Source: a virus. From it: DNA of 34,380 nucleotides. The notes beneath the pieces are model-generated. The model saw nothing but the letters and a program-made list of their open reading frames with translations, was not told the origin of the DNA and did no database searches. The stretch spans positions 1 through 34,380 of the IMG/VR virus record IMGVR_UViG_3300027710_000078; one strand, given 5' to 3'. Shown piece after piece: positions 1,088-29,445 of the stretch. Position 1 is the first letter of the stretch; each line of letters begins with the position of its first letter. A program made the position numbers and the translations under genes.

Positions 1088-1116
1088 AGTTTATTAAGTT
1101 ATCTTAACTATTGCAA
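1088..1116 (-). promoter_or_regulatory. Leftward promoter with operator in the spacer
   Basis: On the minus strand, TTGCAA (1116-1111) is followed after exactly 17 bases by TAAACT (1093-1088). The spacer contains the perfect operator TTAAGATAACTTAA (1107-1094), identical to the sites at 1854 and 3915. A repressor bound here would block RNA polymerase. The promoter would drive the gene at 901-1044 and the leftward genes beyond it. The assignment rests on motif matches and on the repeated arrangement at three loci. Confidence 0.65.
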
Positions 1117-1125
1117 GAACTATTT

Positions 1126-1144
1126 ATTAGGGATAAACCCTAAT
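1126..1144. promoter_or_regulatory. Perfect interrupted palindrome upstream of the leftward promoter
   Basis: ATTAGGG and CCCTAAT form perfect 7-bp arms around a 5-base centre, and the site ends ten bases upstream of the leftward -35 box. As DNA this is a good place for an activator or second regulator site. Read as plus-strand RNA, the hairpin is followed four bases later by seven T residues (1149-1155), so it could also be a terminator. No plus-strand gene lies just upstream to need one. Confidence 0.45.
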
Positions 1145-1192
1145 GTTGTTTTTTTGTCAGGATTGCAAGATTCAAGGGCATAGCTATCCCTA

Positions 1193-1297
1193 CTATGAGG
1201 AATAGCTTGTCAGTCTTGCTGAGTTCTGAGGTGTATATATTGCTTCGATGTCTTTGTCGTGCCTAGGTCTGTCGTTATCACTCATCGGTCTATCCAT
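1193..1297 (-). CDS. Doubtful small open frame, 34 aa
   Basis: A 34-codon frame starting at 1297, with a second ATG four codons later (MSDNDRPRHD). The composition is charged and looks more like protein than noise, and a weak AAGAAG lies upstream. It falls in the otherwise gene-poor segment between the repressor and the leftward promoter, and no overlap with a neighbour supports it. It may be chance. No homology was recognised. Confidence 0.25.
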   Translation of the reverse strand: MDRPMSDNDRPRHDKDIEAIYTPQNSARLTSYSS

Positions 1298-1575
1298 ACA
1301 GGACGGTTCTTCTTACTATCCAAGCAATAACGGATAGGGAAGGCGCAAATGCGCTAGTAGTTTCTAGGGGTATTTACAGCCTTTACCGTAGCAACACCAA
1401 TGAGTACGGGCTAGAAGCAGAAATAGAAAAACCCCTTTGGGTTGCTCTAAGGTGATGTTGCTTACAAAATGGGTCGGTAGTCATTTGGTAAACACTCAGA
1501 ACAACCCAAAAGGGTCTTGGTCACCAACCTAGTTATCCGCAGACATCACTCCGCTTACTGGTAGTGTACTACAAC
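1298..1575 (-). ncRNA. Gene-poor, hairpin-rich segment; candidate structured RNA
   Basis: No convincing gene is present. Several stems are visible: CTATCC/GGATAG (1316-1321 with 1332-1337), GCGCA/TGCGC (1343-1354), and a long stem of 14 pairs between 1431-1444 and 1502-1515. The single non-Watson-Crick position in the long stem is G-U in the minus-strand RNA but C-A in the plus-strand RNA. That favours a minus-strand transcript, downstream of the repressor gene. GTGATGT (1452-1458) could also pair with ACATCAC (1543-1549), crossing the main stem. It could be a regulatory RNA, a repressor 3' UTR, or an origin-like element. It is a candidate only. Confidence 0.4.
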
Positions 1576-1797
1576 TTATTCCAGTTCAGGCCAAATTAAT
1601 TTATGGTTGTGTGGAAATAAAGTTTTACGGGTAATTAGCCCATGTGATTCTTTTTCTAATGTTGCAGCTAGGATCACCAGCTTATCTTGCGGAATATCAC
1701 CGTTCTGCCACATAGATACGGCAGGTACAGATACCCCGACCAGCTTGCTTATACGGGTAGGGCCACCAAGTAATTTGATAATTGCTGTTGCGTTCAT
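1576..1797 (-). CDS. Cro-like helix-turn-helix repressor
   Basis: A 73-residue DNA-binding protein starting MNATAIIKLLGG. The helix-turn-helix spans about residues 11-35 (ISKLVGVSVPAVSMWQNG), and the C-terminal LFPHNHKLIWPEL resembles small Cro/YdaS-type regulators. The frame is open to 1833, but that upstream part lies on the -35 box of the gene's own promoter. The -10 TAAGAT at 1810-1805 would place transcription start near 1798, so ATG at 1797 is chosen and the mRNA would be almost leaderless. It likely binds TTAAGATAACTTAA sites, including one on its own promoter (1798-1811), and so would control both divergent directions. Whether it maintains lysogeny or only times early transcription cannot be told. 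Confidence 0.85.
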   Translation of the reverse strand: MNATAIIKLLGGPTRISKLVGVSVPAVSMWQNGDIPQDKLVILAATLEKESHGLITRKTLFPHNHKLIWPELE

Positions 1798-1833
1798 GTA
1801 AGGTATCTTAACAAATAAACAACACTTTTGCAA
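1798..1833 (-). promoter_or_regulatory. Repressor promoter with overlapping operator
   Basis: On the minus strand TTGCAA (1833-1828) and TAAGAT (1810-1805) are separated by 17 bases. A variant operator TTAAGATACCTTAC (1811-1798) covers the -10 box and the presumed start of transcription. It differs from the perfect palindrome at two positions. This suggests weaker binding, and hence repression of the repressor's own promoter only when it is abundant. The regulation is inferred from geometry. Confidence 0.6.
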
Positions 1834-1841
1834 ATAAACGC

Positions 1842-1870
1842 TTGACTATGAATTTAAGTTATCTTAATCT
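1842..1870 (+). promoter_or_regulatory. Rightward early promoter with operator
   Basis: TTGACT (1842-1847) is followed after 17 bases by TAATCT (1865-1870), and the perfect operator TTAAGTTATCTTAA occupies 1854-1867. The -35 box is preceded by ACGC, giving the 9-base string ACGCTTGAC that also begins the promoter at 3904. It would drive the block starting at 1930. The -10 box matches the consensus poorly, so its exact position is less certain than the -35 box. Confidence 0.6.
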
Positions 1871-1876
1871 TTACAT

Positions 1877-1911
1877 ACCGCACTTGCGGTGACAACTACC
1901 GCAGTTGCGGT
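1877..1911 (+). repeat. Two 14-base inverted repeats spaced 21 bases apart
   Basis: ACCGCACTTGCGGT (1877-1890) and ACCGCAGTTGCGGT (1898-1911) each have 6-bp arms, differ from each other at one base, and are offset by exactly 21 bases, which is two turns of the helix. They lie just after the rightward early promoter and before the ribosome binding site at about 1917-1923. They could be a pair of sites for a second DNA-binding protein, or two short hairpins in the 5' leader of the early mRNA. Confidence 0.6.
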
Positions 1912-1929
1912 GAAATAGAAAGGTAAATT

Positions 1930-2151
1930 ATGAGTGATTATGACCAGCAGTTAGCAGATCAAGTACAGATGCAGTTTGAACTTGATGAAGTATTCAAAGA
2001 CTTGGAAGAAGGTACATTTCTTACCGAGCGTCAAATAGACCTATTACGCCATTGCTGCGGATATGTCGCACCTAAACGCAATAACCATGTAAACCCTGTC
2101 ATTCGTGACATTGTGAATGATTTTGGTCAAATTTTTGGAGCAAACAAATGA
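1930..2151 (+). CDS. Hypothetical acidic early protein, 73 aa
   Basis: A 73-residue acidic, mostly helical protein with a Cys-Cys pair near residues 42-43. It is the first gene of the rightward early block, with AGAAAGG before its ATG. Its stop overlaps the start of the SSB-like gene (ATGA), so the two are probably translated together. No domain was recognised. Its place before an SSB-like protein and an exonuclease suggests a role in DNA metabolism or host takeover, but this rests on context alone. Confidence 0.75.
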   Translation: MSDYDQQLADQVQMQFELDEVFKDLEEGTFLTERQIDLLRHCCGYVAPKRNNHVNPVIRDIVNDFGQIFGANK

Positions 2152-2762
2152 TTATTACTGATACACAAAAAGATTTTAAAATCGCCCCTGCTGGCAACCA
2201 TATTGCTCGCCTGTACTCCATTATTGACCTAGGTCATCAAGCTACAGAATGGAAGGGCGAAACCAAGATCATGCACAAGGTTGTATTTACTTGGGAATTG
2301 CATGGCGATGACGATGCTGGATTGCCACTCAAGACCGATGACGGCAAGCCATTAATCGTATCTAAACGCTATACAGTCAGCCTTGGCGATCAGGCTCGTT
2401 TGCGTCAAGACCTTGAAGCATGGTCAGGCAAAAAAATGACTGCGGAAGATCGCAAGAACTTTGACCTTAAAGGTTTACTGGGTAAGTTTTGCATGGTTAA
2501 TATCACGCACTCGGAAGATGGCAAATACGCCAACATTAGCGGCATTAGTCCAGTTCCTAGCGCATTGCGTAGCGCACAACCCGAAGGCATTAACCCGACC
2601 AAGATGTTTTGGTTGCAAGAGTTTAGGCAAGATGAATACGATGCGTTGCCAAAATACTACAAAGAAAAGATTGCGGAAAGCAGCGAATGGCGGGGTCAGA
2701 AGTTGCGTGAAGCTGAAGCACCCAAAGTTGAAGATGACAACCTAAACGACATTCCGTTTTAA
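2148..2762 (+). CDS. SSB-like DNA-binding protein
   Basis: A 204-residue protein. The N-terminal two thirds look like a beta-rich domain (YSIIDLG, KVVFTWEL, KRYTVSL) compatible with an OB-like fold. The C-terminus turns acidic and ends D-D-N-L-N-D-I-P-F. Bacterial single-strand-binding proteins end with the same kind of acidic D-I-P-F tip, which recruits partner enzymes. It most likely coats single-stranded phage DNA. The exonuclease at 2959, one gene further on, supports a recombination or replication module. Start is fixed by the ATGA overlap with the gene before. The specific family name is not certain. Confidence 0.75.
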   Translation: MIITDTQKDFKIAPAGNHIARLYSIIDLGHQATEWKGETKIMHKVVFTWELHGDDDAGLPLKTDDGKPLIVSKRYTVSLGDQARLRQDLEAWSGKKMTAEDRKNFDLKGLLGKFCMVNITHSEDGKYANISGISPVPSALRSAQPEGINPTKMFWLQEFRQDEYDALPKYYKEKIAESSEWRGQKLREAEAPKVEDDNLNDIPF

Positions 2763-2771
2763 GGGGGCAAT

Positions 2772-2969
2772 ATGAAAGCATTTCCAACATCACAAAGCGA
2801 ACGCTATCCTCAAATCATAGAAGGCGGCATGGACTTGCGTGATTACTTTGCGGCTCACATTATTCAAGGGATACTTGCAAACAATGCAACCTGTGATAAC
2901 GATGAAACGGTAATTAAAGCAGCTTGGGGATTAGCCGACAAAATGATAAAGGCACGAAATGATAGTTAA
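2772..2969 (+). CDS. Conserved small phage protein, 65 aa
   Basis: A 65-residue protein with the core GGMDLRDYFAAHIIQG followed by a helical C-terminal half with AWGLADKMIKAR. Short proteins with an M-D/T-L-R-D-Y-F-A-A core and an A-x-x-x-A-D-x-M-I/L end are frequent in phages of proteobacteria and have no assigned function. A strong AGGGGG precedes the ATG by four bases. The last 11 bases overlap the start of the exonuclease gene, which suggests coupling to recombination functions. Confidence 0.8.
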   Translation: MKAFPTSQSERYPQIIEGGMDLRDYFAAHIIQGILANNATCDNDETVIKAAWGLADKMIKARNDS

Positions 2970-3720
2970 AGAAAAGGTGGTAGAAAATGGTCATTGGTAC
3001 ACAAAAGACGGCACTCCAGCCTATACAACCATCGGCAAGACTGGGGAAAGAGCCACAACGCTTCGTGACGCACGGAAACTTGGACTTTTGCCAAGTGTTA
3101 CAACAATTAACGGAATGTTATCGAAAGCAGGGCTTGATACATGGAAACAGCAACAAGTCCTCTTAGCCGCTTTAACCCTGCCTAGGTTGCCTTACGAACC
3201 TGAAAGTGAGTGGCTTTCCCGTGTAATGCAGGATTCCAAGGCTACGGGCCGTGAGGCTGCGGAACGGGGTACAGCCATTCATGCCATTATTGAGTCGTAC
3301 TTTGACCAAGTGTATATGCCTGAAAAGCCAGCGTATTTAGACGGCATTGATAAAGCCTTAGAAAAGGCGTTTGGAAGCCAGCTATGGCTCTCAGAGAAGT
3401 CGTTTGGGCATCCGCTAGGGTTTGGTGGCAAATGCGATCTAATGGCTAAACCAATCAACGGCAAGGGCAATGGGTTTATTGTTGATTTCAAGACCAAAGA
3501 TACCGACCTTGACAAAGTTGATGTGTATTTTGAACATGAGATGCAACTGGCAGCTTACCGTGAGGGCCTTGGCGTTCCAGCAGCAAGGTGCGCTATTGTT
3601 TTTGTAAATGGTACGACCAATCAGGTCAAACTCATTGAGATCGAGGAACAAAAGCTACAAAATGGCTGGGAATGCTTCCAACATCTACTGCGGGTTTACC
3701 AAATCAAGAACGGAATATAA
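2959..3720 (+). CDS. RecB/Cas4-type PD-(D/E)XK exonuclease
   Basis: A 253-residue nuclease of the PD-(D/E)XK superfamily. The RecB-type motifs appear in order: GTAIHAIIE with His108 and Glu112, GGKCD with Asp160, VDFKTK with catalytic Asp176 and Lys178, and QLAAYR with Gln196 and Tyr200. Such proteins degrade DNA ends in phage recombination or recycle host DNA. With the SSB-like protein upstream it forms a likely recombination pair, although no annealing protein was recognised. It is the last gene before the noncoding segment at 3721-3965. Confidence 0.88.
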   Translation: MIVKEKVVENGHWYTKDGTPAYTTIGKTGERATTLRDARKLGLLPSVTTINGMLSKAGLDTWKQQQVLLAALTLPRLPYEPESEWLSRVMQDSKATGREAAERGTAIHAIIESYFDQVYMPEKPAYLDGIDKALEKAFGSQLWLSEKSFGHPLGFGGKCDLMAKPINGKGNGFIVDFKTKDTDLDKVDVYFEHEMQLAAYREGLGVPAARCAIVFVNGTTNQVKLIEIEEQKLQNGWECFQHLLRVYQIKNGI

Positions 3721-3903
3721 TGGTAGTTCCTTCACGGGAACGGGGGAAAGCAAGAACGCTTCGCATATGGGAATGTGAGTACCCCAACTATTTTTAGGGC
3801 GTTAAGCCGCCAAAGTAGGATGCAGTAAGTATGGAATTTTGCGGCTTTCTGCCATACAGCTTGCAACTGCCAAATACTGCCCTGTTGCTTTTTGGTCACA
3901 TAA
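3721..3903 (+). other. Noncoding segment with crossing stem-loops
   Basis: No gene is visible between the exonuclease and the next promoter. GTTCC/GGAAC forms a small hairpin soon after the exonuclease stop. Further on, AAGCCGC (3804-3810) can pair with GCGGCTT (3841-3847), and GTATGG (3829-3834) with CCATAC (3852-3857). The two stems interleave, so they are either alternatives or form a pseudoknot. The segment may attenuate or process the early transcript. No run of T residues marks a standard terminator. Confidence 0.4.
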
Positions 3904-3935
3904 CGCTTGACGAATTAAGATAACTTAATTATTCT
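3904..3935 (+). promoter_or_regulatory. Second rightward promoter with operator
   Basis: TTGACG (3907-3912) and TATTCT (3930-3935) are 17 bases apart. The spacer holds TTAAGATAACTTAA (3915-3928), the exact reverse complement of the sites read on the plus strand at 1094 and 1854. The -35 region shares ACGCTTGAC with the promoter at 1842. It would drive the genes 3966-5401 under the same repressor. Confidence 0.65.
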
Positions 3936-3965
3936 GTTCTTACTTTAACTGAAAGTGAGATAGAA

Positions 3966-4169
3966 ATGAACATACAAAACTTAATACCCCGAACAAGTCA
4001 AAATGTAGAAGTGCGCTACATCCCTGAAGAAGAATGGTATCGCTTGACTGACGAACGAAATGAAGATGGTTATGGCGTTTTTCGTGATGGCAAATTGATC
4101 TATTCCAACCATGATCCAATCGAAGCAAGTTACGAATTTGACGAGGTAACACATGAACACACCCTATAA
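3966..4169 (+). CDS. Hypothetical protein, 67 aa
   Basis: A 67-residue acidic protein with several aromatic residues (EEEWYRLTDE, DGYGVFRDGK) that look like a small alpha/beta fold. It is the first gene after the promoter at 3904 and overlaps the start of the next gene by 17 bases. The ribosome binding site is weak (GAAAGTGAG). No family was recognised. It may modulate a host protein, as small early phage proteins often do, but this is speculation from position. Confidence 0.65.
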   Translation: MNIQNLIPRTSQNVEVRYIPEEEWYRLTDERNEDGYGVFRDGKLIYSNHDPIEASYEFDEVTHEHTL

Positions 4170-4626
4170 CACAGGCAAAGTAGAGATCGGCAAGTACTAC
4201 CAAAAGCCGTTACGCATTGAGCAAGACGATGACATGATTAAGGTTCAAGGCTGGCTTATTGGTGAAAGCAAAGAGGCCCGCATGGAACGCATAGCCAAAC
4301 GGATTTATTTTGGATTGGTGCTGGCTTTAACAGTAATACTGTTGTTTTCAAGCAACGCTAAAGCTGCGGCTATTGCGACTATGCCCAATGAAGGCGGTGG
4401 CAAGATCGTATTGACCGATGAGGTATGCAAAAACGATGGCAAGACTTACAACAAGTTAAGCCGTGCGTACAACTACACTACATCAGGCCACGGTAGTGAA
4501 GGCTGTTTTTACATTGAAGATGACACGGTTGTAGTCATTTGGGACACGGCAGCAGGGGTAAAAAGGATGCGCTACCCAGCAGAAAACTTCACCCTTATCA
4601 AGCGCAGCAAAGGTACGCAGATATGA
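4153..4626 (+). CDS. Membrane-anchored hypothetical protein, 157 aa
   Basis: A 157-residue protein with a charged N-terminal segment of about 50 residues, one hydrophobic helix at about residues 52-73 (FGLVLALTVILLFSS then A-K-A-A-A), and a C-terminal domain with Cys95 and Cys117, which could form a disulfide outside the cytoplasm. The helix looks like an internal signal anchor. The C-terminal domain resembles small phage proteins with a GCFY-x-D/E-D core and has no known function. Its stop overlaps the start of the next gene (ATGA). Confidence 0.7.
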   Translation: MNTPYNTGKVEIGKYYQKPLRIEQDDDMIKVQGWLIGESKEARMERIAKRIYFGLVLALTVILLFSSNAKAAAIATMPNEGGGKIVLTDEVCKNDGKTYNKLSRAYNYTTSGHGSEGCFYIEDDTVVVIWDTAAGVKRMRYPAENFTLIKRSKGTQI

Positions 4627-4967
4627 ACAATGAACCAGTAGCGTGGATAGATTCGTACGATTTAGAGCGTTTACCGCACCATGATTGCTGGGTAAACGGG
4701 CAAGAACATAAAAATAGCGTACCACTCTACACCCATCCAGCAGACCTAACAGATGAGGAAATTATTGAAAGTCTTGCTGAACTTGAGCATGACCAATGGA
4801 TGTCATGGGCTGATTCAATAATGAAATCTGAAAAGATTAGCGATAACAGGTTTGCAAGATGGGCTAGTTTAATGATTCCTTATGCTGAATTATCAGAAGA
4901 AATGAAAGAGCATGACAGAGTTTGGGCTAGGAGAGCATTAGCAATACTAAAAAAGACACAAAAGTGA
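4623..4967 (+). CDS. PLYTHP-type hypothetical protein, 114 aa
   Basis: A 114-residue protein starting MNNEPVAW, then S-V-P-L-Y-T-H-P near residues 31-38 and LTDEEI near 41-46, ending in ARRALAILKK. The same blocks in the same order occur in the junction-spanning protein at the window ends, so the two are paralogues. The frame is open further upstream, but the ATG at 4623 overlaps the previous stop (ATGA) and aligns with Met42 of the paralogue. Proteins with the EPVA...PLYTHP pattern are common in phages; their role is unknown. Confidence 0.75.
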   Translation: MNNEPVAWIDSYDLERLPHHDCWVNGQEHKNSVPLYTHPADLTDEEIIESLAELEHDQWMSWADSIMKSEKISDNRFARWASLMIPYAELSEEMKEHDRVWARRALAILKKTQK

Positions 4968-5401
4968 AATACAAGCAGTTTGACCAACGGTTACATGATG
5001 CGTGTGATCCACCAGCCCGTAATGCAGTAGCGGGTTGGCTTAAAACGGTTCACCATGTTGATGCTGTGCCTAACCCTGATAAGTACGCTGTAGACCTTGT
5101 TTTTAGTAAAAATGGGCAGGAAATAGGGTTTGGGGAAGTAGAAGTACGGGATTGGGGCATGGATTTTTGCCCTTACGAAACCATCCATATTGCCCAGCGC
5201 AAAGAAAAGCTGTTTAGTCACCCTCGTACTACGATGTATGTAGTCACTCGAAACCTAACCCATGCTTACTGGATCAGGGCCAGCAAGATCAAAGAATGTC
5301 CGCTAATAGAAGTACCAAATAAAGCAGTAGCTAATGAGGAGTATTTCTACGATGTACCCACGCATATGTGGAAATTTGTAGATTTACGGGATGTGTTTTA
5401 G
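4964..5401 (+). CDS. Possible PD-(D/E)XK-like nuclease, 145 aa
   Basis: A 145-residue protein that begins with GTG, overlapping the previous stop (GTGA). The central part reads D-K-Y-A-V-D-L-V-F, a short turn, then F-G-E-V-E-V-R. An acidic residue followed by a strand and an E-x-E/K signature is the arrangement of PD-(D/E)XK nucleases, here with Glu where Lys is usual. It could be an endonuclease acting in replication or host DNA breakdown, or a non-catalytic relative. It is the last rightward gene, and its stop overlaps the endolysin stop on the other strand. Confidence 0.65.
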   Translation: MKYKQFDQRLHDACDPPARNAVAGWLKTVHHVDAVPNPDKYAVDLVFSKNGQEIGFGEVEVRDWGMDFCPYETIHIAQRKEKLFSHPRTTMYVVTRNLTHAYWIRASKIKECPLIEVPNKAVANEEYFYDVPTHMWKFVDLRDVF

Positions 5402-5412
5402 GTTAAAACATC
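5390..5412. terminator. Weak hairpin across convergent stop codons
   Basis: Around the overlapping stops of the rightward block and the endolysin gene, GATG..TTTTA can pair with TAAAACATC across a 3-base loop, with a two-base bulge. The A/T arms would give a T-rich tail in either direction. The position where two transcripts meet fits a shared terminator, but the stem is weak. Confidence 0.3.
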
Positions 5413-5985
5413 CAAAACTTTATTGATTTTGGCTATTCTGTCTGCCATTCCAATAGTCCCGCCATTAATGCGTTTTGACATGGTTTCAATATCCATTGCA
5501 TCGGCTAACAGATTTAACTGTTTACGATTCCAAAACCACCCCGCAGAAAGAGCCGCATAGCGGGGTTGTTCAACAAGTTGGGGGTTAGCTACCAAGTCCT
5601 CACCAATCGCCTCGCCAAACGCCTTGTAGTTGTCTTTGCCAGTCAATTGGATTAGTCCACGCCCGATGTATTTAGCACCATCACCATCTTCCGTATTACC
5701 CATCCTGCCTGAATACACTTTATTGGCGATCATTTCAGGCTGACGGGCAAACTTTTCAGCAATATCAGCATCAGGAAAGCGTGAAGGCCATGTAGCCATC
5801 AGCGCTTTAGCCGAATAATTCAGGTTTTCTTTTAGGAACTTAAACCCGCCTGATTCGTGCATACATTGACCGATAAAACAGGCTTGGCGTTTAGGAGTGT
5901 TGATTTCGTACTTTTCAAAAGTTTCTACTAAAGGCTCAAACCATTTGCCTTCAATGCCTAAAGCTAAAAGCTGAGATTCAATCAT
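5398..5985 (-). CDS. GH19-type endolysin
   Basis: A 195-residue endolysin of glycoside hydrolase family 19 (chitinase-like lysozyme), which cuts the glycan strands of peptidoglycan. Glu44 in HESGGF is the likely proton donor and Glu53 the second acidic residue. The motif GRGLIQLTG near residues 108-116 and the ending with RINGGTIGM are typical of phage members. There is no signal peptide, so it needs a holin. It is the last gene of the leftward late block, directly after the holin-like gene, which fits a lysis cassette. Start overlaps the previous stop. Confidence 0.93.
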   Translation of the reverse strand: MIESQLLALGIEGKWFEPLVETFEKYEINTPKRQACFIGQCMHESGGFKFLKENLNYSAKALMATWPSRFPDADIAEKFARQPEMIANKVYSGRMGNTEDGDGAKYIGRGLIQLTGKDNYKAFGEAIGEDLVANPQLVEQPRYAALSAGWFWNRKQLNLLADAMDIETMSKRINGGTIGMADRIAKINKVLDVLT

Positions 5986-6488
5986 TTTTTAAGCATCCCT
6001 TCAATTTCTTTAGTTTTGTCTTTGCTGCCTTGGCTTGATCCAAAGTAAAAAGATAAGACTTGACCTGCGCTACTGGTAATAAATCCAAGCGCAAAGATCA
6101 CCATTTGCTGTTGATCTACAGGTACATCTTTAAACATCAAAATACCAATAAAACTAAACGCTAAAGTTACCGTACCAAGCGCAAGCAGGGGGACTACCGA
6201 CTTATCCAGCTTAGTAGCGTGTTCGCTTGTGGCTACGGCTGCGTACGCTTGGCGGGCAGAATCACGGTCTTGAGCGTCTAATTTGGCGTATTCAAGGTCA
6301 AGTTCCTTCAGCTTCATTGCCATCTCAGGATTGCCAGTCAAAGCGGCTGTAACGCCTTCTATTGTGTCATCGGGTATGCCTAGCTTAGAAGCGATCCAGC
6401 CCACAGCAGCACCCCCAGCAGGGCCAGCAACAGCAGTAGCCAAGACAGGAGCAACACCTTTAAGTAGTCCAAGTAAAGTTTCCATCAT
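5982..6488 (-). CDS. Holin-like protein (GTA 3TM holin type)
   Basis: A 168-residue protein with a hydrophobic glycine/alanine-rich N-terminal segment (about residues 8-34), a charged middle (about 55-95, with DRDSARQAYA), two membrane helices (about 98-118 and 128-147), and the C-terminal YFGSSQGSKDK. This order matches the three-helix holin family known from gene transfer agents (PF11351-like). It would let the endolysin reach the cell wall. It lies immediately upstream of the endolysin, sharing four bases. A structural role has also been suggested for relatives, so the holin function is likely but not certain. Confidence 0.75.
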   Translation of the reverse strand: MMETLLGLLKGVAPVLATAVAGPAGGAAVGWIASKLGIPDDTIEGVTAALTGNPEMAMKLKELDLEYAKLDAQDRDSARQAYAAVATSEHATKLDKSVVPLLALGTVTLAFSFIGILMFKDVPVDQQQMVIFALGFITSSAGQVLSFYFGSSQGSKDKTKEIEGMLKK

Positions 6489-6940
6489 TTATCACCCCAA
6501 ACAATAGCCCACGCTATCCAACCTGCTACCAGTAAGCACATTAACTGCGCCCTACGAATATTCTTTAAATCACCGTCATATTTCTGTTTTTCTTCTTTTT
6601 CCAGCTTTTCTAGTTCGTTCTTTATCTTCAAGATTTCAGCCCATTCTTTCTCGCCTAGCGCAGTATTCTTGAATTGTCGCAAGAACTCTACCTTTAAGGA
6701 ATACTCCTCATGGCTAATAAGTTTGCGCTGACGGTATTCAGCTAAAGCCTTGTGTATTGCTAAACGCTGCTTTACTTGTGCTTCTTTTTTAGCCCGTAAT
6801 CTATCTTTGGCTAGTTGTGTTGCTACATCCGTTCCGTCTTTTTGGAACGCTTCTACTTGTTTAGTTAATGACTTGGCACTTTCCCTAGCTGAATCAAGGC
6901 TGTCTGTAAGGGTTTTGACATCCACATTATTTATCGCCAA
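6485..6940 (-). CDS. Coiled-coil protein with C-terminal membrane helix
   Basis: A protein of up to 151 residues: a long charged coiled coil (about 15-125, rich in Lys, Glu, Arg) and a C-terminal hydrophobic segment (QLMCLLVAGWIAWAIVW). Its place between two holin-like genes suggests a lysis or membrane-control role, perhaps a spanin-like or antiholin function, but no family was recognised. The start is uncertain: TTG at 6940 or GTG at 6925; neither has a clear Shine-Dalgarno, and the gene is probably coupled to the one before, whose stop is at 6927. Confidence 0.7.
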   Translation of the reverse strand: MAINNVDVKTLTDSLDSARESAKSLTKQVEAFQKDGTDVATQLAKDRLRAKKEAQVKQRLAIHKALAEYRQRKLISHEEYSLKVEFLRQFKNTALGEKEWAEILKIKNELEKLEKEEKQKYDGDLKNIRRAQLMCLLVAGWIAWAIVWGDK

Positions 6941-7157
6941 ATAAGTGGATTACCCAACCGAATACGGTGCTGATTCCAGCAACAATGGTCATGCCTACCC
7001 AAAAGCCGCCCCTAGACCGTTCTGCCATGCCTACCAGCTTCTTTAGGTCAGCATCCATGTTGTCTATTTTCTTTTCCATAGAATCAAACTTGCGTTCGTA
7101 ATCTTCGACCTTTTGCCAAAGTACGCCATATTTGACTGGGTCAATTTCAAACGCCAT
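6927..7157 (-). CDS. XhlA-like small membrane protein
   Basis: A 76-residue protein with an N-terminal heptad-like helix (about residues 12-45, ERKFDSMEKKIDNMDADLKK) followed by one membrane helix (about 52-72, GGFWVGMTIVAGISTVFGWV). This layout resembles XhlA-type proteins, small coiled-coil and membrane partners in phage lysis. ATG at 7157 is preferred; the TTG three codons upstream is possible but lies inside the end of the previous gene. It probably works with the holin-like protein at 5982. Confidence 0.7.
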   Translation of the reverse strand: MAFEIDPVKYGVLWQKVEDYERKFDSMEKKIDNMDADLKKLVGMAERSRGGFWVGMTIVAGISTVFGWVIHLFGDK

Positions 7158-7158
7158 A

Positions 7159-7416
7159 TTAACCAACTAACGCTTTTACTTCGTCTTGTGTAAGACCTAA
7201 TGCGGCTAGTTTAGCTAGTGCAGAAGCCTTTGTATCTTTAGCGGCTTGTGCTTTAGCGGCTACTGTAGCTTGTGTAGATTCCCATAAAGCATCAAGTTCG
7301 TCTTGAGTAGGTTTTGGTGAAGAATCTAGCCAATCCAAACCATCATAAGATTCGCCATTTAATGACCATTGTTTACCAGCATAATTTTGCGTAAGGATTT
7401 GAGAATAATCAATCAT
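7159..7416 (-). CDS. XkdW-like tail-fibre-associated protein
   Basis: An 85-residue protein with the segment YDGLDWLDSSPKPTQDELDALW (about residues 23-44), then an alanine-rich helix and the ending LAALGLTQDEVKALVG. Short proteins of this kind accompany tail fibre genes in many phages and resemble XkdW; they may help fibre assembly. It lies between a fibre-associated gene (stop overlap at 7413) and the lysis genes, so it marks the end of the tail block. Confidence 0.7.
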   Translation of the reverse strand: MIDYSQILTQNYAGKQWSLNGESYDGLDWLDSSPKPTQDELDALWESTQATVAAKAQAAKDTKASALAKLAALGLTQDEVKALVG

Positions 7417-8152: not shown

Positions 8153-8153
8153 T

Positions 8154-10604: not shown

Positions 10605-12400
10605 TATTTTTTCCCTTTTCTTAATTCTTCTGCCAGTTTTTCAGGCGTGAAATTAATGGCTTCCTGCACTTGTTTGCTTAATTTCTTCTTTTCTAACGCT
10701 TCTGATCCTACTTCAACCATTGGGCCTGCAAGCGGCATTTTATTCAATAATTTGTTCAAAACTTTATCGACTGCGCTTGAAGTATTAGAAGTGTTTGTGC
10801 CTCTAACTGGTGAATTAATAGCAATTACAGTATCTCGTAAGTTTCTAATTTCTTGTGCGCCAGCTTTTCCAAGTAAATAATCTAATTTGCCTGATTTATC
10901 AAGGTTTTTAACTATTACATCGAATTGTTTAGGATTAAAGGTGCGCTGACCTAAAGAATCGGTTTCAATGTTGCTGGTAATTGCATTTCTAAGGTTTTCA
11001 ATAGTTTGCCCTTTAAGTTCTGCCCAAGCCTGCTGACCTTTTTCGGTCTTTTTAAGGGTATACCCTAAAGATTTTAAGCTATCTAAATCAGCTTGCATTA
11101 CAGACTTGTCAAACACCTTTTCCAAAGCAACAACTCTGTCGTTAGAATTTGGTTTTTTGCTCAACAAATCATCAATTAAACCAATGTTTTCAAACTCATT
11201 GGCAAATTTAGTTCTCAACCTTCTTGCTTCTTTAAATAGATCGCCACCAGCGTTTTGTGTAGCCGTATCAATCATTGTTTTAATATCGCCACCAAACGCC
11301 ATGTTGCTAGGAGTATCGCCTGATAGCCTATTGACCATTTTGCGCACTTCTTCTACTTCATTTAAAGTCATTTCACCGTTTTTGGCTAGTTGATTTAACT
11401 TTATTTTTGCGGCATTTATAACTGGAGCATTAGTGGCTTCAGCTTCCATAGTGTCAAGTTGGTTAATAATTCCTTGAACATTAACTTTTTGCTGACCTTC
11501 TTCCGATGCTCTAGCAGTTGTGTAAGCACTTTTGTAAGCATTTTTAGCTTTATTGGCAGATTCTCTTAAAGCGGCATCTACAACTTCACCAGTAGGTCTA
11601 AAATAGAATGGATTAGCTACTTTTGCGCCTGTAGCATCTACATAAGCATCTAAGTTTTGACCAATTTGCGTATTTCTTAGTTCTTGAGCGGCAATTAACG
11701 GTCTACCCACATCTTCAGGGTAAGTTTTCATTGTTTCAACTTCAAACTGTTGTTGCCCTAAATCACGGGTTGCTTGACCTTTGCTGAGTTTAATAGGCAC
11801 TCGTAGTTGTTCTGCCATTTGCGCTCTTACAACTGCATTTGGCACTTCTGCTGCGCCTGCGCCCGACATGGTAGACATTGGCGGTTCAGGCTGACGCAGA
11901 ACTTGTGCAATGCGTGGGCCAACATCTTGTACTGTTTGTGCTGCTTGTCTTACCTGAGTAGGAGTTCCACCTGCTGCCCTTGCATAGCTTGGCAACATAC
12001 CAACGCTAGGAATAACAGGGGGTAATTTACTGGCTTCAAACACATTACCCATACTTTGAAGTATGTCTTGGCTTACAGGGCTTGTAGGCTGGTATTGAAA
12101 GCGTTGTGCAAATTCAGGGCTATCAACACGCTTACTAGTGCCTTGCCGTATGTTTTCTATAGCACCCGCACCTACCCCTAAAAATGGTGCGGCTGCGCCT
12201 GTAACGATAGCTGCTGGCACTTCGTATACAGCCTTTACCCGATCCATCATGGTACGGGGCGGTTCTTGTACTACAGGTGGGTTTGGAACTGAACCAACTA
12301 CGGTAGGAACATCGCTGGTAATGATGTTGCCTTGATCTATAACAAAGCCAGCGGGTAAACCGCTTTTTTCTTCAAGTACAAATCCTTTTGGAAGTGCCAT
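10604..12400 (-). CDS. Probable internal virion or ejection protein, 598 aa
   Basis: A 598-residue protein that begins with a duplicated motif (ALPKGFVLEEKSGLPAGFVID), followed by a proline-rich region, a hydrophobic glycine/alanine segment (about 58-80), and a long helical, charged C-terminal part. This resembles proteins packed in podovirus capsids that travel with the DNA into the cell. Its position between connector/tail and fibre genes fits. No enzymatic motif was seen. It starts one base into the previous stop (TAATG). The family is not certain. Confidence 0.6.
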   Translation of the reverse strand: MALPKGFVLEEKSGLPAGFVIDQGNIITSDVPTVVGSVPNPPVVQEPPRTMMDRVKAVYEVPAAIVTGAAAPFLGVGAGAIENIRQGTSKRVDSPEFAQRFQYQPTSPVSQDILQSMGNVFEASKLPPVIPSVGMLPSYARAAGGTPTQVRQAAQTVQDVGPRIAQVLRQPEPPMSTMSGAGAAEVPNAVVRAQMAEQLRVPIKLSKGQATRDLGQQQFEVETMKTYPEDVGRPLIAAQELRNTQIGQNLDAYVDATGAKVANPFYFRPTGEVVDAALRESANKAKNAYKSAYTTARASEEGQQKVNVQGIINQLDTMEAEATNAPVINAAKIKLNQLAKNGEMTLNEVEEVRKMVNRLSGDTPSNMAFGGDIKTMIDTATQNAGGDLFKEARRLRTKFANEFENIGLIDDLLSKKPNSNDRVVALEKVFDKSVMQADLDSLKSLGYTLKKTEKGQQAWAELKGQTIENLRNAITSNIETDSLGQRTFNPKQFDVIVKNLDKSGKLDYLLGKAGAQEIRNLRDTVIAINSPVRGTNTSNTSSAVDKVLNKLLNKMPLAGPMVEVGSEALEKKKLSKQVQEAINFTPEKLAEELRKGKK

Positions 12401-19005: not shown

Positions 19006-19020
19006 TACTACATATTGCTA

Positions 19021-21440: not shown

Positions 21441-21448
21441 GGTTGTTC

Positions 21449-23216: not shown

Positions 23217-25453
23217 TACAGAACGACCCAGCGACTTCCACTTGGTACGGTAATTGTTACCCCTGACGATACGACTACAGGGCCAACAGAACTTGCTGCA
23301 TAACCGCTTGGAATACTGTAACTGGTAGCAATCGTCATGTTATTAACCACCAAACCATTTGATGCTTCTACGGCAGGTACTCGCAATGCGCCTGTGCCTG
23401 TGGTGTATGTAAAACTTGCCGATTGGTTCGGGGTAGTCGTGCCTTGACCATACGGTACATAGTTGGTTGTGTAGGTTACGGCTGGTGCTTTATTGTTAAA
23501 GGTAGTCCAGTCCGTACTGCTCAAAGCACCTCGATTGACTGACGATGCGGTAGGTACATTTAATGTAATAACAGGTGTAGTAGTGCTATTTGCTACGGTA
23601 GAACTAAGGTCTGTACCTGTTGTGCCTAATGTAAGCGCAGCTACCGATGTAACCGTACCTAATGTGGAATCGTTAGAAGTAATCGTAAAATTAGGGTAAG
23701 TACCAGTTACCGTAGTAGTTCCTGCCCCAGTTAATGCAACTACTTGGTCGGGTGCGGTATTAGTAACAGTAAAGTTAGGGTATGTGCCGCTAGTGCTAAT
23801 CCCTGTGCCGCCTGTAATGCTTACGGTTTGATCGGGTGCGGTATTTGTAATTGTTACATTGCCTGTACTTGCCGATACGCTAATACCAGTACCAGCCGTA
23901 GCTTGGGTTACGCCTGTATTGGCTATGGTAATTGCGCCAGCACCGTTTGTAACGGAAATTGCAGTACCAGCCGTTAATGTGGATTTTGTTAAAGTATTAC
24001 CCGTGGAATTACCAATTAACAGTTGCCCATCGGTATAAGTTGTTTGACCTGTGCCACCTTGGTCTACAGCTACCGTGCCAATAATATGGGTTGTTTCTGT
24101 AGATACAATTTGTACTGAAACAAGCAAAGTGCCAACACTAGGGTTTGCCCTAAGAATTACGCCTACTTGAATTGAATAATTTGGTCTTGTAGGTTCTGTT
24201 ACTGTATATGTTCCAGCAGTCGTAGCCGATAAAAATACAGCATCACCTTCAGCAAACGCAGATGTATCTAAGCCGTTTACTAAACCACTTATGGTTACAT
24301 ACCCAAAACCGTTGTTTGCAATAGTTGTAGTTGTAACGCCAATAATGTCAGAAGTTGTAAAGCTGGTTGCTATTGCTTTAGCAATAGTAGGTGTATTGCC
24401 AGTTGCACCATTTACATAAACCACCGTGCCATTATCTATAGTTGCGCCAGTTTGATTTCTAACTCGTACAATTTGTTCTTGACCGATGTTTACGGTCATT
24501 TGACTATTGTCGTTGTAATACGCTAATGTTTTAGCATCGGTATCGTAAAAGACTTTGCCTTCTAAATAAGTTGGCGGTGTAATTGGGGTAAAGTTTTCTT
24601 CAATAACACCAGTAACAACACCTGTGTCGCTTACCGTTACTATGCTGTTCTGCAACAATTTACCTGTTGTGCCATCAAAACGGGCTATTGCGTTGTCTGT
24701 AGCGGAAGCAGGGCCTACTACATTGCCATCAAATTCATCGTTAGAAGTAATGGTGAAATTAGGGTATGTTCCGCTAATTGTGGTTGTTCCAGCACCAGTT
24801 AAAGCTACAACTTGATCGGGGGCAGCATTGGTTACTACGCCTGTTGTATTGTCATAGCTAATGCCTGTGCCAGCACTTATGGAAGTTCTTGCCCTAGCTT
24901 GGGTAAAGTATTCGTTTGTACCTTCGGCAATGTTGGTAGTGGTTAATACGACTACGCCTGTTTGACCGTTTACAGATACTACGGCATCGGTATTGTCTAC
25001 TTTTTGCCAAATACTTCCATTAAAGATAGCCCAATCGCCAATAACCCAATCAGTAATCCCATTAAGATTTGTATTTCCTGATACATCAACAACATAGTAA
25101 TAACCCTTAGTTCCTACTGAACTTGTTAGCGTTGGTGTGTTGGTTGAAGCGTTCCATGTACCTTGATAATTTAAATCGCCCATTAAAGGGATTTGGCTTT
25201 GCGGTACTTTACCGCCTGCATCGAGGGTAGCTACGCCTAATGCTGCGCCCTTTTCCGTTGTTGGAATGTAACCAGTAACGGTTACGCCTGACATTGTGCC
25301 GCCAGTAATAGCCACATTGTTGGCATTTTGCTCTGCCATAGTGCCTAAACCAATTAATTGGTGGTCGGCATTCCAATCTGACGGTTCTACAAGTGTGTCA
25401 TCCCCAGCATCAGGAACGGTTGATACCTTTAAATGCTTGACTGTTATAGGCAT
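23216..25453 (-). CDS. Long tail fibre protein
   Basis: A 745-residue beta-rich fibre. The N-terminus (HLKVSTVPDAGDDTLVEPSDWNADHQLIG) is a frequent virion-attachment part. The shaft has VSVNGQTGVVVLTT and three copies of an APDQ-V-x-x-T-G unit followed by G-T-Y-P-N-F-T-I/V-T, whose DNA copies at about 23690, 23770 and 24750 are already diverged. The C-terminal SVGPVVVSSGVTITVP and RWVVL match the C-terminus of the protein at 10029-10604. It probably recognises the host. It lies between portal and scaffold genes, apart from the other fibre genes. Confidence 0.88.
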   Translation of the reverse strand: MPITVKHLKVSTVPDAGDDTLVEPSDWNADHQLIGLGTMAEQNANNVAITGGTMSGVTVTGYIPTTEKGAALGVATLDAGGKVPQSQIPLMGDLNYQGTWNASTNTPTLTSSVGTKGYYYVVDVSGNTNLNGITDWVIGDWAIFNGSIWQKVDNTDAVVSVNGQTGVVVLTTTNIAEGTNEYFTQARARTSISAGTGISYDNTTGVVTNAAPDQVVALTGAGTTTISGTYPNFTITSNDEFDGNVVGPASATDNAIARFDGTTGKLLQNSIVTVSDTGVVTGVIEENFTPITPPTYLEGKVFYDTDAKTLAYYNDNSQMTVNIGQEQIVRVRNQTGATIDNGTVVYVNGATGNTPTIAKAIATSFTTSDIIGVTTTTIANNGFGYVTISGLVNGLDTSAFAEGDAVFLSATTAGTYTVTEPTRPNYSIQVGVILRANPSVGTLLVSVQIVSTETTHIIGTVAVDQGGTGQTTYTDGQLLIGNSTGNTLTKSTLTAGTAISVTNGAGAITIANTGVTQATAGTGISVSASTGNVTITNTAPDQTVSITGGTGISTSGTYPNFTVTNTAPDQVVALTGAGTTTVTGTYPNFTITSNDSTLGTVTSVAALTLGTTGTDLSSTVANSTTTPVITLNVPTASSVNRGALSSTDWTTFNNKAPAVTYTTNYVPYGQGTTTPNQSASFTYTTGTGALRVPAVEASNGLVVNNMTIATSYSIPSGYAASSVGPVVVSSGVTITVPSGSRWVVL

Positions 25454-27732
25454 TACTGTACCCCAATAATCTTACCGTCTTGACCCCGAACTACCTGCTT
25501 CGGTCTATTGTGGTTCTCGTTAATTGTATTGACCAAATCACCCAAAGCTAGGGTCATTTGCTGGTTGCTCATGGCAATAGCATCGGCAATAGGCTGCATT
25601 GGGTGTTGCATAGAAGCTGCCATATCCATTTCCGTCATATAAGCCTGTTCACCGCTAGATTCGTCAGCACCAATACGGGCAACTTCAATCTTTGCACCGT
25701 TGTTAATGTGTGCCAATAAGACCTGAGTATTGCGCTCGGTGTGCATCTTCATCTGTGCGACCTTAACTTCCATCTCACGATCCATAGCATTGCGCTGTTC
25801 TTCAAGCTGGAATTTAAGCTGGTTTTCTTGGGCTTGGTACTCTTGTTTAGCCTTTTCAAGTTCCATCTGCATCTGCATCTTTTGTTGGTCAATTTGCATC
25901 TGCATCTGCATTTCAGCTTGTTTAGCCTGAATCTTGGCTTGTTCGATCTGCATGGTCATTTCCATCTTCTGCTGTTCAGGTGATGGTGGCTTTGGTTGGC
26001 CTTTAGTTTGTTCAGCTTGCTGTCTAAACTGATCGGCTGTTTCGTCAATCAAACCTTCTAAGCCTTTACCAGCCTTAAATGCGGTTACGCCAAACTTGAG
26101 CATCTCCATAAGCAATGGGGTAAGTTCAGGTACGCCTTGTGCTACTGGCAATGCGGTCTGCATAAAGCCACTAACTGCTGTTAGGAACTCAACACGGTCT
26201 TGCTTTTCTTGCTGCTCATCCTGATAAATCATGGAATCCGTAGTTACTTCAATACGGAAATTCTTGGCAGGCTCATCTTTCAAAAGTGCAAGGGCTTGCG
26301 GTATAAGCTGTTGATCTTGCGGGCTTAATTGCATTGCCCCGCTGATCTTGACGATGGTATCTTCAGTAAAGTGCTGGCAAATAATCTGCGCTTTGATCTG
26401 CAAAAGAGCGGTAGCAAAGTTCACCACTTCATGCTGCATAGTCTTTAAACGCCCTGAAGCGTTGTTGGACTTAATGATCTGTGCGCCAAGGGTTTCGTTC
26501 GGATCGGTCTGACCACGCTGAATGTCAGCAATGCCCATGATCTCGTAGATTTGACCCTTGACTTGATCCATAGCTTGATAAGCCATTTGCAAGCCTTCAG
26601 CAATAGGTCGAATGTCTACAAGGTTAATTGCGCCTTGTAAGCCACCTTTTTCGCTAAATGCACCGTAGTTCTTAACTGGCAGCAATGCGTTGTTCTCGCC
26701 TTCAGTAAACAAACGCTCCAAACTAGGCTCTGCCGCATCGTAAACACCACGCACTTTAAGGGCATGAATAAAGCCATCAATACGGTCTGCAAGGGTGTCC
26801 AGCTGTCTTGCTTGATCTTGGTACAGTACAAAGTCAGGTACAGGAATTAGGCTGTCGGTTGTGAGGGTTGAAAACATGGGTTTTGGGCAAGGCCAAAAGT
26901 TTTCAAGCTGCAACGGATCGTCACGGGTATCAAGAATCTTACCCATTGACTTGGATAGCCAAAGCACTTGACCTGTGGTTTTGTCCCAAATCTCATAAAT
27001 CAAGGCTTCTCGTGAACCTTCGGTCATCTTCTCGTTAAATGATTTAGATGTGTCAGGCTTAGTATCTAACGGGATTCTGCCGCCAAGTTCCTCACCAAAT
27101 CGTTCAACAAGGGCAGGGCGCTCCATATAAACCTTACGCCATACTGCGGTGACTTCTTCCCATGTACGGGCTACGGTCATACCAAAGTCACGCCAGTAAA
27201 CATAATCTACTGGGGCGCATTCGTACTCAATACGCTCTTGATCTTCACGGTAAATACCGCCTTCGGTTTCTGCTTCGTCTGTATCTTCGGTAACTTGCAG
27301 GCCATCATCAGGCATATCTTCTGCTTCACCACCAGCCATACCGACAATATGTGGCTCATAACGCACCCAAGCTGTACCACGCCCACCCAGTAAACGGTCT
27401 TGAACCGCTTGCTTCATTGCGCTGGCATAGTCACCATAATGCTCAATTTCGTACTCCAATGCCCGTTCTAGCATCATTGACGCTACACGACCAATTGGGT
27501 CGTTGTCACGGAATCTACGGCTTACATCAGGTCTTGGAAGGCGGGCAAATACCGCAGGGGTAATGGTTTGTACATTGCTCCACAGAATATTGAACTTAGC
27601 GTTTGGATTGTTGCGGCTGCGGGATTCGTCACGGTATCGTTTAACGATCTTATCGGCACGACCTTCCCATTCCTTAAATGTACGCTCGTACTGGGCGATG
27701 CAGTTGTACCAATCTTCGTATGTATGATCCAT
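25453..27732 (-). CDS. Portal protein
   Basis: A 759-residue portal protein of the P22-like type. The N-terminal part holds the wing and stem regions (ARLPRPDVSRRF, YECAPVDYVYWRDF, LIPVPDFVLYQDQARQLD), with the segment MGIADIQRGQTDPNETLGAQ before the long stem helix. The C-terminal 200 residues are a Gln/Met-rich coiled coil (about 560-690), like the barrel of P22 portal. It forms the DNA entry ring and docks the terminase. It directly follows the large terminase, with AGGA before the ATG. Its size is usual for the group. Confidence 0.92.
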   Translation of the reverse strand: MDHTYEDWYNCIAQYERTFKEWEGRADKIVKRYRDESRSRNNPNAKFNILWSNVQTITPAVFARLPRPDVSRRFRDNDPIGRVASMMLERALEYEIEHYGDYASAMKQAVQDRLLGGRGTAWVRYEPHIVGMAGGEAEDMPDDGLQVTEDTDEAETEGGIYREDQERIEYECAPVDYVYWRDFGMTVARTWEEVTAVWRKVYMERPALVERFGEELGGRIPLDTKPDTSKSFNEKMTEGSREALIYEIWDKTTGQVLWLSKSMGKILDTRDDPLQLENFWPCPKPMFSTLTTDSLIPVPDFVLYQDQARQLDTLADRIDGFIHALKVRGVYDAAEPSLERLFTEGENNALLPVKNYGAFSEKGGLQGAINLVDIRPIAEGLQMAYQAMDQVKGQIYEIMGIADIQRGQTDPNETLGAQIIKSNNASGRLKTMQHEVVNFATALLQIKAQIICQHFTEDTIVKISGAMQLSPQDQQLIPQALALLKDEPAKNFRIEVTTDSMIYQDEQQEKQDRVEFLTAVSGFMQTALPVAQGVPELTPLLMEMLKFGVTAFKAGKGLEGLIDETADQFRQQAEQTKGQPKPPSPEQQKMEMTMQIEQAKIQAKQAEMQMQMQIDQQKMQMQMELEKAKQEYQAQENQLKFQLEEQRNAMDREMEVKVAQMKMHTERNTQVLLAHINNGAKIEVARIGADESSGEQAYMTEMDMAASMQHPMQPIADAIAMSNQQMTLALGDLVNTINENHNRPKQVVRGQDGKIIGVQ

Positions 27733-27734
27733 GT

Positions 27735-29084
27735 TTATATCCTGCGATTAACTATTTTGGGGGTTTCTTTCCACATCTCGTTCAGGGTTACTTCCGTTTG
27801 CCCGACATGAAGTCCTTTAATGTTTGAATCTTTGAGGATAGGGCTGTCCTCATCTTTCCAAACAAGGCTGAGATAGCGGAACGCATCTGCTGAGTGGCTT
27901 GTCCAATCGTGTTTCGGGCGATCCCTAAATACTTTTTTATCATCATCCCACTCCCTTTGATATTGGCGCAAACATTCAATGCCTTCTTCACATCTATTAT
28001 CAAACCAAGCCCTAGTTAATGCAAGCCTTGTTGCCTGTATTCCGTCTTGTAATGACAGATTTGGAACAATTTTTAGGTGTTTTATGTCAATTTTTGCAGC
28101 AATTTGCTCAATTATGCTCTTACCACCGCTTGCTAGTGTTTTTGCTCTAGCGTCATGTGGCAGGTAATGGTAGCCATATTTGTACCCAAACTCATCTTCT
28201 TTTTGTTGCAATAGCATGGTGTAAAACGGTATGGCTTGACCGTTACTGGAATGATGATCGAGTACCCGTATCTCACCATAAACCACCTGAAACCACCAAA
28301 TACTTGTGGAATCGTTAAATCCTAAGTCCCAAGCTGTATGGCATGGGAACATTGGGTCATAGTCCACAGTAGTAATCCGTTCAAGGTCGGTAAGCCTACG
28401 CATTTCCTGACCATAAAACGCCCCAAGAATGGCAGCTTCAAAGCTACATAAGAACTCTTGCTCGTATTGGTTGTCTGACATGGTGGCTTGTGCATCCATC
28501 AATTCAGACTGTGGCAATAAGCCTGACTGGTCGGCTCGTAAGGTTTTGACATACCAGTTTGGATTCTTTTGGGCTTCGTTATATATGTCGTAAAAAGCGT
28601 TATGGCCCTTTGGCGTACCAATAAAGGTAGCCCAGCCTTGTCTATCTGTTAGCAATGGGCGCACAATCTCTCCCCAAAGCCTAGGTTTCATGTCGGCATA
28701 CTCATCCAGCACTACGCCATCAAGGTATAAACCCCGTAAGGCATCGGGATTATCAGCACCAAATAACCGTATTTTTGCCCCATTTACTAGTTCTACCCAT
28801 AATTCCGATTGGTTAGCCTTGACAATGGCTGGCTCTGCAAACTTGAGCAGGTAATCCCAAGCAATGTTTTTGGCTTGTGCGTAGTACGGTGCAATATAGG
28901 CATACCTAGCATCAGACTTATTCTCGGTGACTGCCCTGCGGATCGTGTCGCATATGGTGGCTACGGTCTTTCCTGCCCTGCGGTGACAGACTAAGACTGC
29001 CCAGCGTTGATTCCGTCTGTGGAAGTCTAGGAACGCATCCCTAGCCTTGTACGGGTATTCGTACCGCTTTACTAACTCTTTCAA
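27735..29084 (-). CDS. terL: Terminase large subunit
   Basis: A 449-residue DNA-packaging motor. The ATPase domain has Walker A at about residues 33-40 (C-H-R-R-A-G-K-T) and Walker B at 124-129 (V-V-L-D-E-Y). The nuclease domain starts near residue 240 with A-W-D-L-G-F-N-D, and later acidic residues include D in HSADAFRYL. It cuts concatemeric DNA and pumps it into the capsid through the portal encoded next. The start overlaps the small-subunit stop (ATGA). The type of ends it makes cannot be told from this gene alone. Confidence 0.95.
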   Translation of the reverse strand: MKELVKRYEYPYKARDAFLDFHRRNQRWAVLVCHRRAGKTVATICDTIRRAVTENKSDARYAYIAPYYAQAKNIAWDYLLKFAEPAIVKANQSELWVELVNGAKIRLFGADNPDALRGLYLDGVVLDEYADMKPRLWGEIVRPLLTDRQGWATFIGTPKGHNAFYDIYNEAQKNPNWYVKTLRADQSGLLPQSELMDAQATMSDNQYEQEFLCSFEAAILGAFYGQEMRRLTDLERITTVDYDPMFPCHTAWDLGFNDSTSIWWFQVVYGEIRVLDHHSSNGQAIPFYTMLLQQKEDEFGYKYGYHYLPHDARAKTLASGGKSIIEQIAAKIDIKHLKIVPNLSLQDGIQATRLALTRAWFDNRCEEGIECLRQYQREWDDDKKVFRDRPKHDWTSHSADAFRYLSLVWKDEDSPILKDSNIKGLHVGQTEVTLNEMWKETPKIVNRRI

Positions 29085-29413
29085 TCTAGGAACTTGTGTT
29101 CGTGAATGATCTTGACTGGCTGATCTTCGTCACCTGTATGCTCTGTGCGGGCTAACTTAGGCAGGTGATATTCCATGACGCTCTGCAACATACCAAAAGC
29201 CTTTTCAGGATTAGGTAAAACAATGAATTTATCGTCATCGTTTTTAACGCCTTTAGCGACCTGTTCTAGCCACTCTTGCATTTTGTGGGCGTTACCATCA
29301 ACGAACTGTGCAATCGCTTCTCTAGCCATTGCTGTGGATTTGTTAGGCACTCCCTTGGGTCTACCCGATCTATTAAGGTTGCCTTCAACAGTTTTCGATA
29401 CTTTATTACTCAT
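29081..29413 (-). CDS. terS: Terminase small subunit-like protein
   Basis: A 110-residue protein with the N-terminal GRPKGVPNK motif, typical of DNA-binding proteins encoded before the large terminase (DUF5681-like), then a helical region. It probably recognises the packaging start in phage DNA and delivers it to the large subunit. The ribosome binding site is poor. A variant of the repressor operator lies 19 bases before its start, so terminase expression may be repressor controlled. Function is inferred from the motif and position. Confidence 0.82.
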   Translation of the reverse strand: MSNKVSKTVEGNLNRSGRPKGVPNKSTAMAREAIAQFVDGNAHKMQEWLEQVAKGVKNDDDKFIVLPNPEKAFGMLQSVMEYHLPKLARTEHTGDEDQPVKIIHEHKFLD

Positions 29414-29417
29414 ATTT

Positions 29418-29445
29418 AACCAAGTGGTTGATTAAGATAAGTTAA
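29418..29445 (-). promoter_or_regulatory. Operator variant before the terminase genes
   Basis: TTAAGATAAGTTAA (29432-29445 on the plus strand) differs by one base from the perfect operator found at 1094, 1854 and 3915. It sits in the only gap (34 bases) in this part of the leftward block. A small inverted repeat, AACCA/TGGTT (29418-29429), lies between it and the start codon. No good -35 box accompanies it, so it may act as a roadblock to transcription and not at a promoter. Confidence 0.5.

Follow-up and report, generated by a model that had tools for sequence, protein, structure and literature searches.

A Cro-like protein and putative strong and weak operators at dispersed promoters of an uncultured virus

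A 14-base palindrome that recurs at far-apart places in the genome of an uncultured freshwater bacterial virus raises the question of whether one small repressor controls promoters in several parts of it. The sequence analyzed here, referred to as the window, is an IMG/VR virus record of 34,380 nt; an 18-bp direct terminal repeat (TATTTCCTCATCTGTTAG) at positions 1-18 and 34363-34380 suggests that it is probably a closed genome. An earlier note on this DNA had placed exact copies of the 14-mer TTAAGTTATCTTAA at 1094, 1854, and 3915 and variants at 1798 and 29432. All five are present, the copy at 3915 on the minus strand, with two mismatches at 1798 and one at 29432. Over the whole window, we counted 18 matches with up to three mismatches, compared to 6.4 expected from shuffled sequence; with at most one mismatch, there were 4 matches against 0.03 expected (dinucleotide-preserving shuffles of the window). 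A ranking matrix built from relatives only, from which the window and its 100% relative were excluded, placed 3915, 1854, and 1094 at the top by a wide gap, followed by 29432, 11074, and 1798. Equally good sites inside genes were also looked for, and the single comparable match was that at 11074, inside a coding gene; it was rejected as a real operator, with 0.2 to 0.3 matches of such a score expected by chance. The putative operators, their promoters, and the gene for the candidate repressor are as follows.

1088-1116, minus strand: predicted leftward promoter, TTGCAA (1116-1111), 17-base spacer, TAAACT (1093-1088), followed by the leftward gene block; seen in the sequence and conserved in relatives.
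1094-1107, no strand assigned: OL, putative strong operator with perfect arms in the leftward promoter; exact match, at the same place in most relatives.
1576-1797, minus strand: gene for a 73-aa P22-Cro/YdaS-like helix-turn-helix (HTH) protein, the putative sole repressor; identified from Pfam, phrog_35, AlphaFold, and a fold search.
1798-1811, minus strand: O1, putative weak operator covering the -10 of the repressor promoter up to the ATG, with 9 of 10 arm bases matching; one arm mismatch in 79/79 relatives.
1805-1833, minus strand: predicted repressor promoter, TTGCAA (1833-1828), 17-base spacer, TAAGAT (1810-1805), 7 nt from the ATG; seen in the sequence.
1842-1870, plus strand: predicted rightward early promoter, TTGACT (1842-1847), 17-base spacer, TAATCT (1865-1870); seen in the sequence, with the positions of TTG and the -10 conserved.
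1854-1867, no strand assigned: OR, putative strong operator within the rightward early promoter, with 10 of 10 arm bases matching; exact match, perfect at the same place in relatives.
3907-3935, plus strand: predicted second rightward promoter, TTGACG (3907-3912), 17-base spacer, TATTCT (3930-3935); from a promoter scan.
3915-3928, no strand assigned: O3, putative strong operator in the second rightward promoter; exact match, conserved.
29432-29445, minus strand: Oter, putative weak operator with 9 of 10 arm bases matching, located 18 bp ahead of the gene that precedes the terminase large subunit gene; one mismatch in 76/78 relatives.
29445-29450, minus strand: -10-like TAGAAT overlapped by Oter; TAGAAT, TACAAT, TAAACT, or TATACT at the same place in relatives.

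The promoter directions proposed earlier, one leftward and two rightward, are borne out, with 1094 in a leftward promoter and 1854 and 3915 in rightward ones. Each copy was also said to fill the 17-base spacer of its promoter, which holds for 1094 and 3915, both wholly inside, but only approximately for 1854, which runs into the first 3 bases of the -10. Promoters predicted by a generic scan of the window were not separable from those in shuffled sequence; we accept the predicted promoters at the operators because they are conserved in relatives and not because of the scan. Just upstream of the leftward promoter, at 1125-1145 (plus strand), lies a palindrome of another kind, TTAGGG-N5-CCCTAA, with a T-run on the plus strand. 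In relatives, many OL and O3 promoters have a similar palindrome on their upstream side, and such palindromes are candidate backstop terminators or activator sites.

In IMG/VR, genes for relatives of the 73-aa protein turned up on about 300 stretches, and the best 80 loci among them were examined in detail; an alignment-based search gave the same best 80. Among relatives, the motif is TTAAG-N4-CTTAA, in which the arms are constant and the central four bases vary freely. We therefore rejected the 14-mer as a fixed motif, and the exact 14-mer was likewise rejected as a diagnostic string, as an IMG/VR search with it returns many unrelated contigs. Perfect TTAAG-N4-CTTAA occurs 1 to 4 times per contig in 29/29 contigs, one of which (G028) was picked up by the 14-mer scan instead of the repressor search and may carry its single site by chance; the reversed control pattern was found 0 times. 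In 11 complete or long genomes with 6 to 12% noncoding sequence, 32 of 34 perfect sites are intergenic, and the remaining two fall in short open reading frames that are probably not genes. Perfect sites stand at early promoters across the 80 loci (beside the repressor gene, ~0.7 kb to the left, and 1.8 to 3.3 kb to the right, with the left site, OL, missing in a minor subclade), but the loci are related and the site counts are therefore not independent events. A noncircular test, in which leaders were chosen solely for the hairpin and ribosome site that follow and the operator was not used, gave a perfect site in 33/34 leaders on the left side and 34/34 on the right. Per genome there are about five sites, at promoters.

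The two remaining sites in the window depart from the perfect arms, and they do so consistently among relatives. At O1, the number of arm mismatches is exactly one in all 79 loci, never zero or two, and it arises from 11 variants, all in the arm on the start-codon side. Drift is unlikely because O1 keeps one mismatch in eleven different variants, though the loci are related. The repressor -10 lies 5 to 9 nt before the ATG in 79/79 loci, and no Shine-Dalgarno sequence or ribosome site precedes the ATG in any of the 79. Since the -10 is so near the ATG and there is no ribosome site, the repressor mRNA is probably leaderless, as is the lambda cI mRNA (PMC3293720). At Oter, exactly one arm base is mismatched in 76/78 loci, at differing positions. 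We read the one-mismatch sites at the repressor and preterminase promoters as probable selection for weak sites. The operators would then fall into two tiers, a strong one at the early promoters and a weak one for autoregulation and at the preterminase promoter, with the mismatch expected to weaken binding.

It is possible, if somewhat doubtful, that Oter is a conserved late-promoter start region that resembles an operator by chance, a reading that concerns this site only and leaves the main explanation intact for the other four. Its conservation exceeds the operator arms, extending to the centre and to the downstream CAACCACTTGG, and because of this a further constraint may act at Oter besides the operator. 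A -35 for the preterminase promoter was sought, and none was recognizable. In addition, three relatives have a ParB-like/DNA methylase gene with an operator-like element of its own in front, TTAAGCATCATTAA (G001 21748, G007 9261, and G017 30319), which has one mismatch, at a position other than that in Oter. A chance resemblance fits poorly, however, with the retention of 9 of 10 arm bases in nearly all loci around mismatches that differ in position. It also fits poorly with two sister contigs without the repressor, L422 and L423 (the latter too short to reveal its own repressor), in which the Oter palindrome is lost while the adjoining CAACCACTTG stays.

We next consider the protein. The 73-aa product matches Pfam P22_Cro with an E value of 1.4e-6 and 28.4 bits, against a curated cut-off of 30.2, and YdaS with 20.8 bits, against a cut-off of 30; it also matches the phrog_35 transcriptional repressor (E = 5e-9). 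Its AlphaFold model has a pLDDT of 87, and the closest folds are YdaS (8c7k and 8co2 among the closest solved structures), Xfaso1 Cro, N15 Cro, and P22 Cro, all with weak significance (Foldseek E > 0.01; VIA Z for P22 Cro a middling 5.2), so that no family is excluded by these searches. YdaS of prophage CP-933P, a Cro analogue, represses both its own promoter and the divergent one (PMC8630535). Unlike the window protein, YdaS acts opposite a CI analogue, PaaR2, and has another operator sequence. The Cro of Acinetobacter Vieuvirus phages is 45% identical to the window protein but lies on the rightward side, adjoining LexA-like CI and CII, and has the half-site TTAGG (TTAGG-N4-CCTAA beside its gene).

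The closest parallel in operator sequence is immC of Salmonella phage P22, which has the same TTAAG-N4-CTTAA operator; P22 OL1 and OR3 match it exactly, and the core of the DNA in the P22 c2-operator crystal structure, CATTTAAGATATCTTAAATA (PDB 2R1J; PMC9976882), is the window motif. P22 also shares the small Cro-like HTH protein and a leftward repressor gene between OL and OR, which are ~0.77 kb apart. As far as can be judged from sequence, the window resembles the P22/lambda immunity region in having predicted divergent promoters at OR, a leftward repressor gene with a leaderless-type promoter, and a leftward promoter beyond OL. In contrast, P22 has clusters of two or three operators at both OL and OR, whereas the window has one at OL and two (O1 and OR) at OR. 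P22 also has a two-domain c2 repressor and lysogeny, while the window lacks c2 and has a Cro-like protein in its place. The window further differs from P22 in having a third early promoter and a preterminase site, with one site per promoter. A lambdoid immunity region was rejected as the class of this locus, as operator clusters, CI, and tyrosine integrase were not found.

The gene's placement raises the main rival explanation, that the 73-aa protein is the immunity repressor of a nonintegrated (plasmid-like or pseudolysogenic) prophage, with all five sites serving as operators of lysogeny. In its favor, the gene occupies the CI/c2 position, flanked by OL and OR and pointing away from the rightward promoter; like lambda cI, it is probably leaderless; OL and OR are 760 bp apart, compared to about 770 bp in P22; and a site before the terminase would be under control. 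Against this, neither a tyrosine integrase (PF00589) nor an S24 CI/c2-type domain (PF00717) was detected in 15 records (the window and 14 relatives), with the controls detected, and the four HTH_3 signals in these records are all in the region of the 73-aa repressor gene. No partition gene was found among the window proteins scanned, and a host search of 84,980 species genomes gave one fragmentary match only, with no prophage evidence. In addition, the homologues in temperate Acinetobacter phages are Cro proteins beside a separate CI. We consider an immunity role unlikely. Because no tyrosine integrase and no CI-type repressor were found, we prefer to see the protein as Cro-like, timing lytic transcription, and not as a repressor for lysogenic immunity, a preference that only these missing genes suggest.

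Several observations link the sites to this protein. The half-site is of the P22 Cro/c2 type expected for the protein family. More distant homologues retain a one-mismatch site abutting the ATG, and those 50 to 68% identical to the MW202520 protein have, besides the site at the ATG, another one farther upstream. Finally, sister contig L422 (13.4 kb) amounts to a natural operator swap: it shares the late genes, but its HTH protein is another one, of 66 aa (L422:12599-12799, minus strand), and no TTAAG operator was found in it, even allowing one mismatch. Taken together, these observations tie the sites to the 73-aa protein, which we infer binds them. That the palindromes are instead read by a host regulator or a second phage regulator is quite improbable. 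The AT-rich motif and the occurrence of the exact 14-mer in many unrelated contigs would leave some room for such a reader, but every relative with the repressor gene also has the sites, one of them abutting the start codon of that gene, and they disappear in a sister contig where the HTH protein is a different one.

The answer to the opening question is that the 73-aa Cro-like protein likely reads TTAAG-N4-CTTAA in two tiers, from strong early sites and from weaker sites at its own and the preterminase promoters. The protein would bind as a dimer, with one recognition helix per TTAAG half-site, and the central four bases would not be read specifically. At OL, OR, and O3, the repressor would occupy the interval from -35 to -10, or reach slightly beyond it, and exclude RNA polymerase. 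At O1 it would cover the -10, the start point, and the edge of the ATG, and at Oter the -10-like hexamer, again acting by simple polymerase exclusion. The perfect-arm sites OL, OR, and O3 would fill first and shut the leftward and both rightward early transcripts. O1 and Oter, each with one arm mismatch, would fill only at higher repressor levels; filling of O1 would give negative autoregulation, and filling of Oter would bring the packaging genes under control later or in part. The earlier proposal that one small repressor controls early, leftward, and late genes from far-apart sites thus stands in part: a Cro-like HTH protein is accompanied by conserved palindromes that look like its cognate sites, and these occur at its own promoter, at both leftward and rightward early promoters, and ahead of the terminase genes. 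Its "late" component is more guarded, the site there being a conserved one-mismatch variant whose putative function is the least certain of the set.

With about even confidence, we suggest that, in a whole lineage of freshwater phages, a P22-type switch has been pared down to one Cro-sized protein at the CI position. Clustered operators would have given way to one per promoter, in two affinity tiers, and the protein would close the early promoters first and then, at a higher level, its own and the packaging promoter, without CI or integrase. The novelty would lie in a Cro-sized protein at this position, in promoters with a single site each, and in site strengths conserved as two tiers. Operator strength could in this way encode the order of gene shutoff with one small repressor, and the dozens of natural versions (perfect versus one-mismatch arms, free centres) make affinity and timing directly testable. 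The findings also suggest that operator recognition of the P22 type occurs in uncultured freshwater phages without CI as well.

Dispersed operators are themselves an old theme, as P1 C1 shows: one repressor there also acts at operators dispersed over many transcription units, but through 22 asymmetric 17-bp sites (PMC8546580), compared to about five symmetric 14-bp sites here. The earlier note had likened the present sites to the stoperators of some mycobacteriophages. L5 stoperators are also dispersed sites for one repressor, more than twenty in number; they are asymmetric 13-mers bound by a monomer that block elongation, and many are found outside promoters, in the short gaps between genes (PMC9283540). 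Although the window's sites are far apart in one genome and Oter lies inside the leftward gene block, elongation-halting stoperators are highly improbable here and the comparison is not supported, as the sites number about five, have symmetric arms at every early site and nearly so elsewhere, follow no orientation rule, all stand at promoters, and have a P22-type sequence.

The transcripts from the early promoters share further features, listed here with the noncoding region behind the repressor gene.

1066-1083, minus strand: 5'-terminal leader hairpin, TTACTC-aataac-GAGTGA; supported by covariation.
1108-1575, minus strand: structured noncoding region from the repressor stop codon to OL, with a terminator-like hairpin at 1443-1430; RNA fold z = -5.9.
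1877-1890, plus strand: leader hairpin 1, ACCGC-actt-GCGGT; covarying stems in relatives.
1898-1911, plus strand: leader hairpin 2, ACCGC-agtt-GCGGT; same sequence class.
3938-3960, plus strand: 5'-terminal leader hairpin, TCTTACTTT-aactg-AAAGTGAGA; supported by covariation.

At every early promoter, a hairpin lies at the predicted RNA start in a TAC...GTG frame and is followed by GAGATAGAAAAGG or a similar sequence. Complementarity of the inner two pairs was seen in 94% for a set of 32 distinct hairpins, compared to 47% with shuffled partners (maximum, 70%). The leader hairpins possibly serve in mRNA protection or antitermination or form a recombination cassette. T4-type promoter-early stem-loop (PeSL) cassettes likewise place an early promoter and a stem-loop ahead of variable early genes, a resemblance that serves only as a lead; those cassettes are not known to contain a repressor operator.

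The noncoding region behind the repressor gene is 340 to 590 nt long in relatives, with fold z scores of -2.3 to -7.0 in 27/27 nonredundant relatives. It consists of a conserved, covarying 5' module that ends in the terminator-like hairpin and, in relatives, several exchangeable 3' modules. In two relatives, the 3' module is the Rfam RF02932 Betaproteobacteria-1 RNA (L021:3701-3822 and L030:6379-6500), which hints at a possible betaproteobacterial host. The leftward block of the window also contains a gene matching a "starvation-inducible transcriptional regulator" PHROG (30942-31298), a PAPS-reductase-like gene (31671-32417), and a NUMOD4-HNH endonuclease gene (32682-33209), all on the minus strand.
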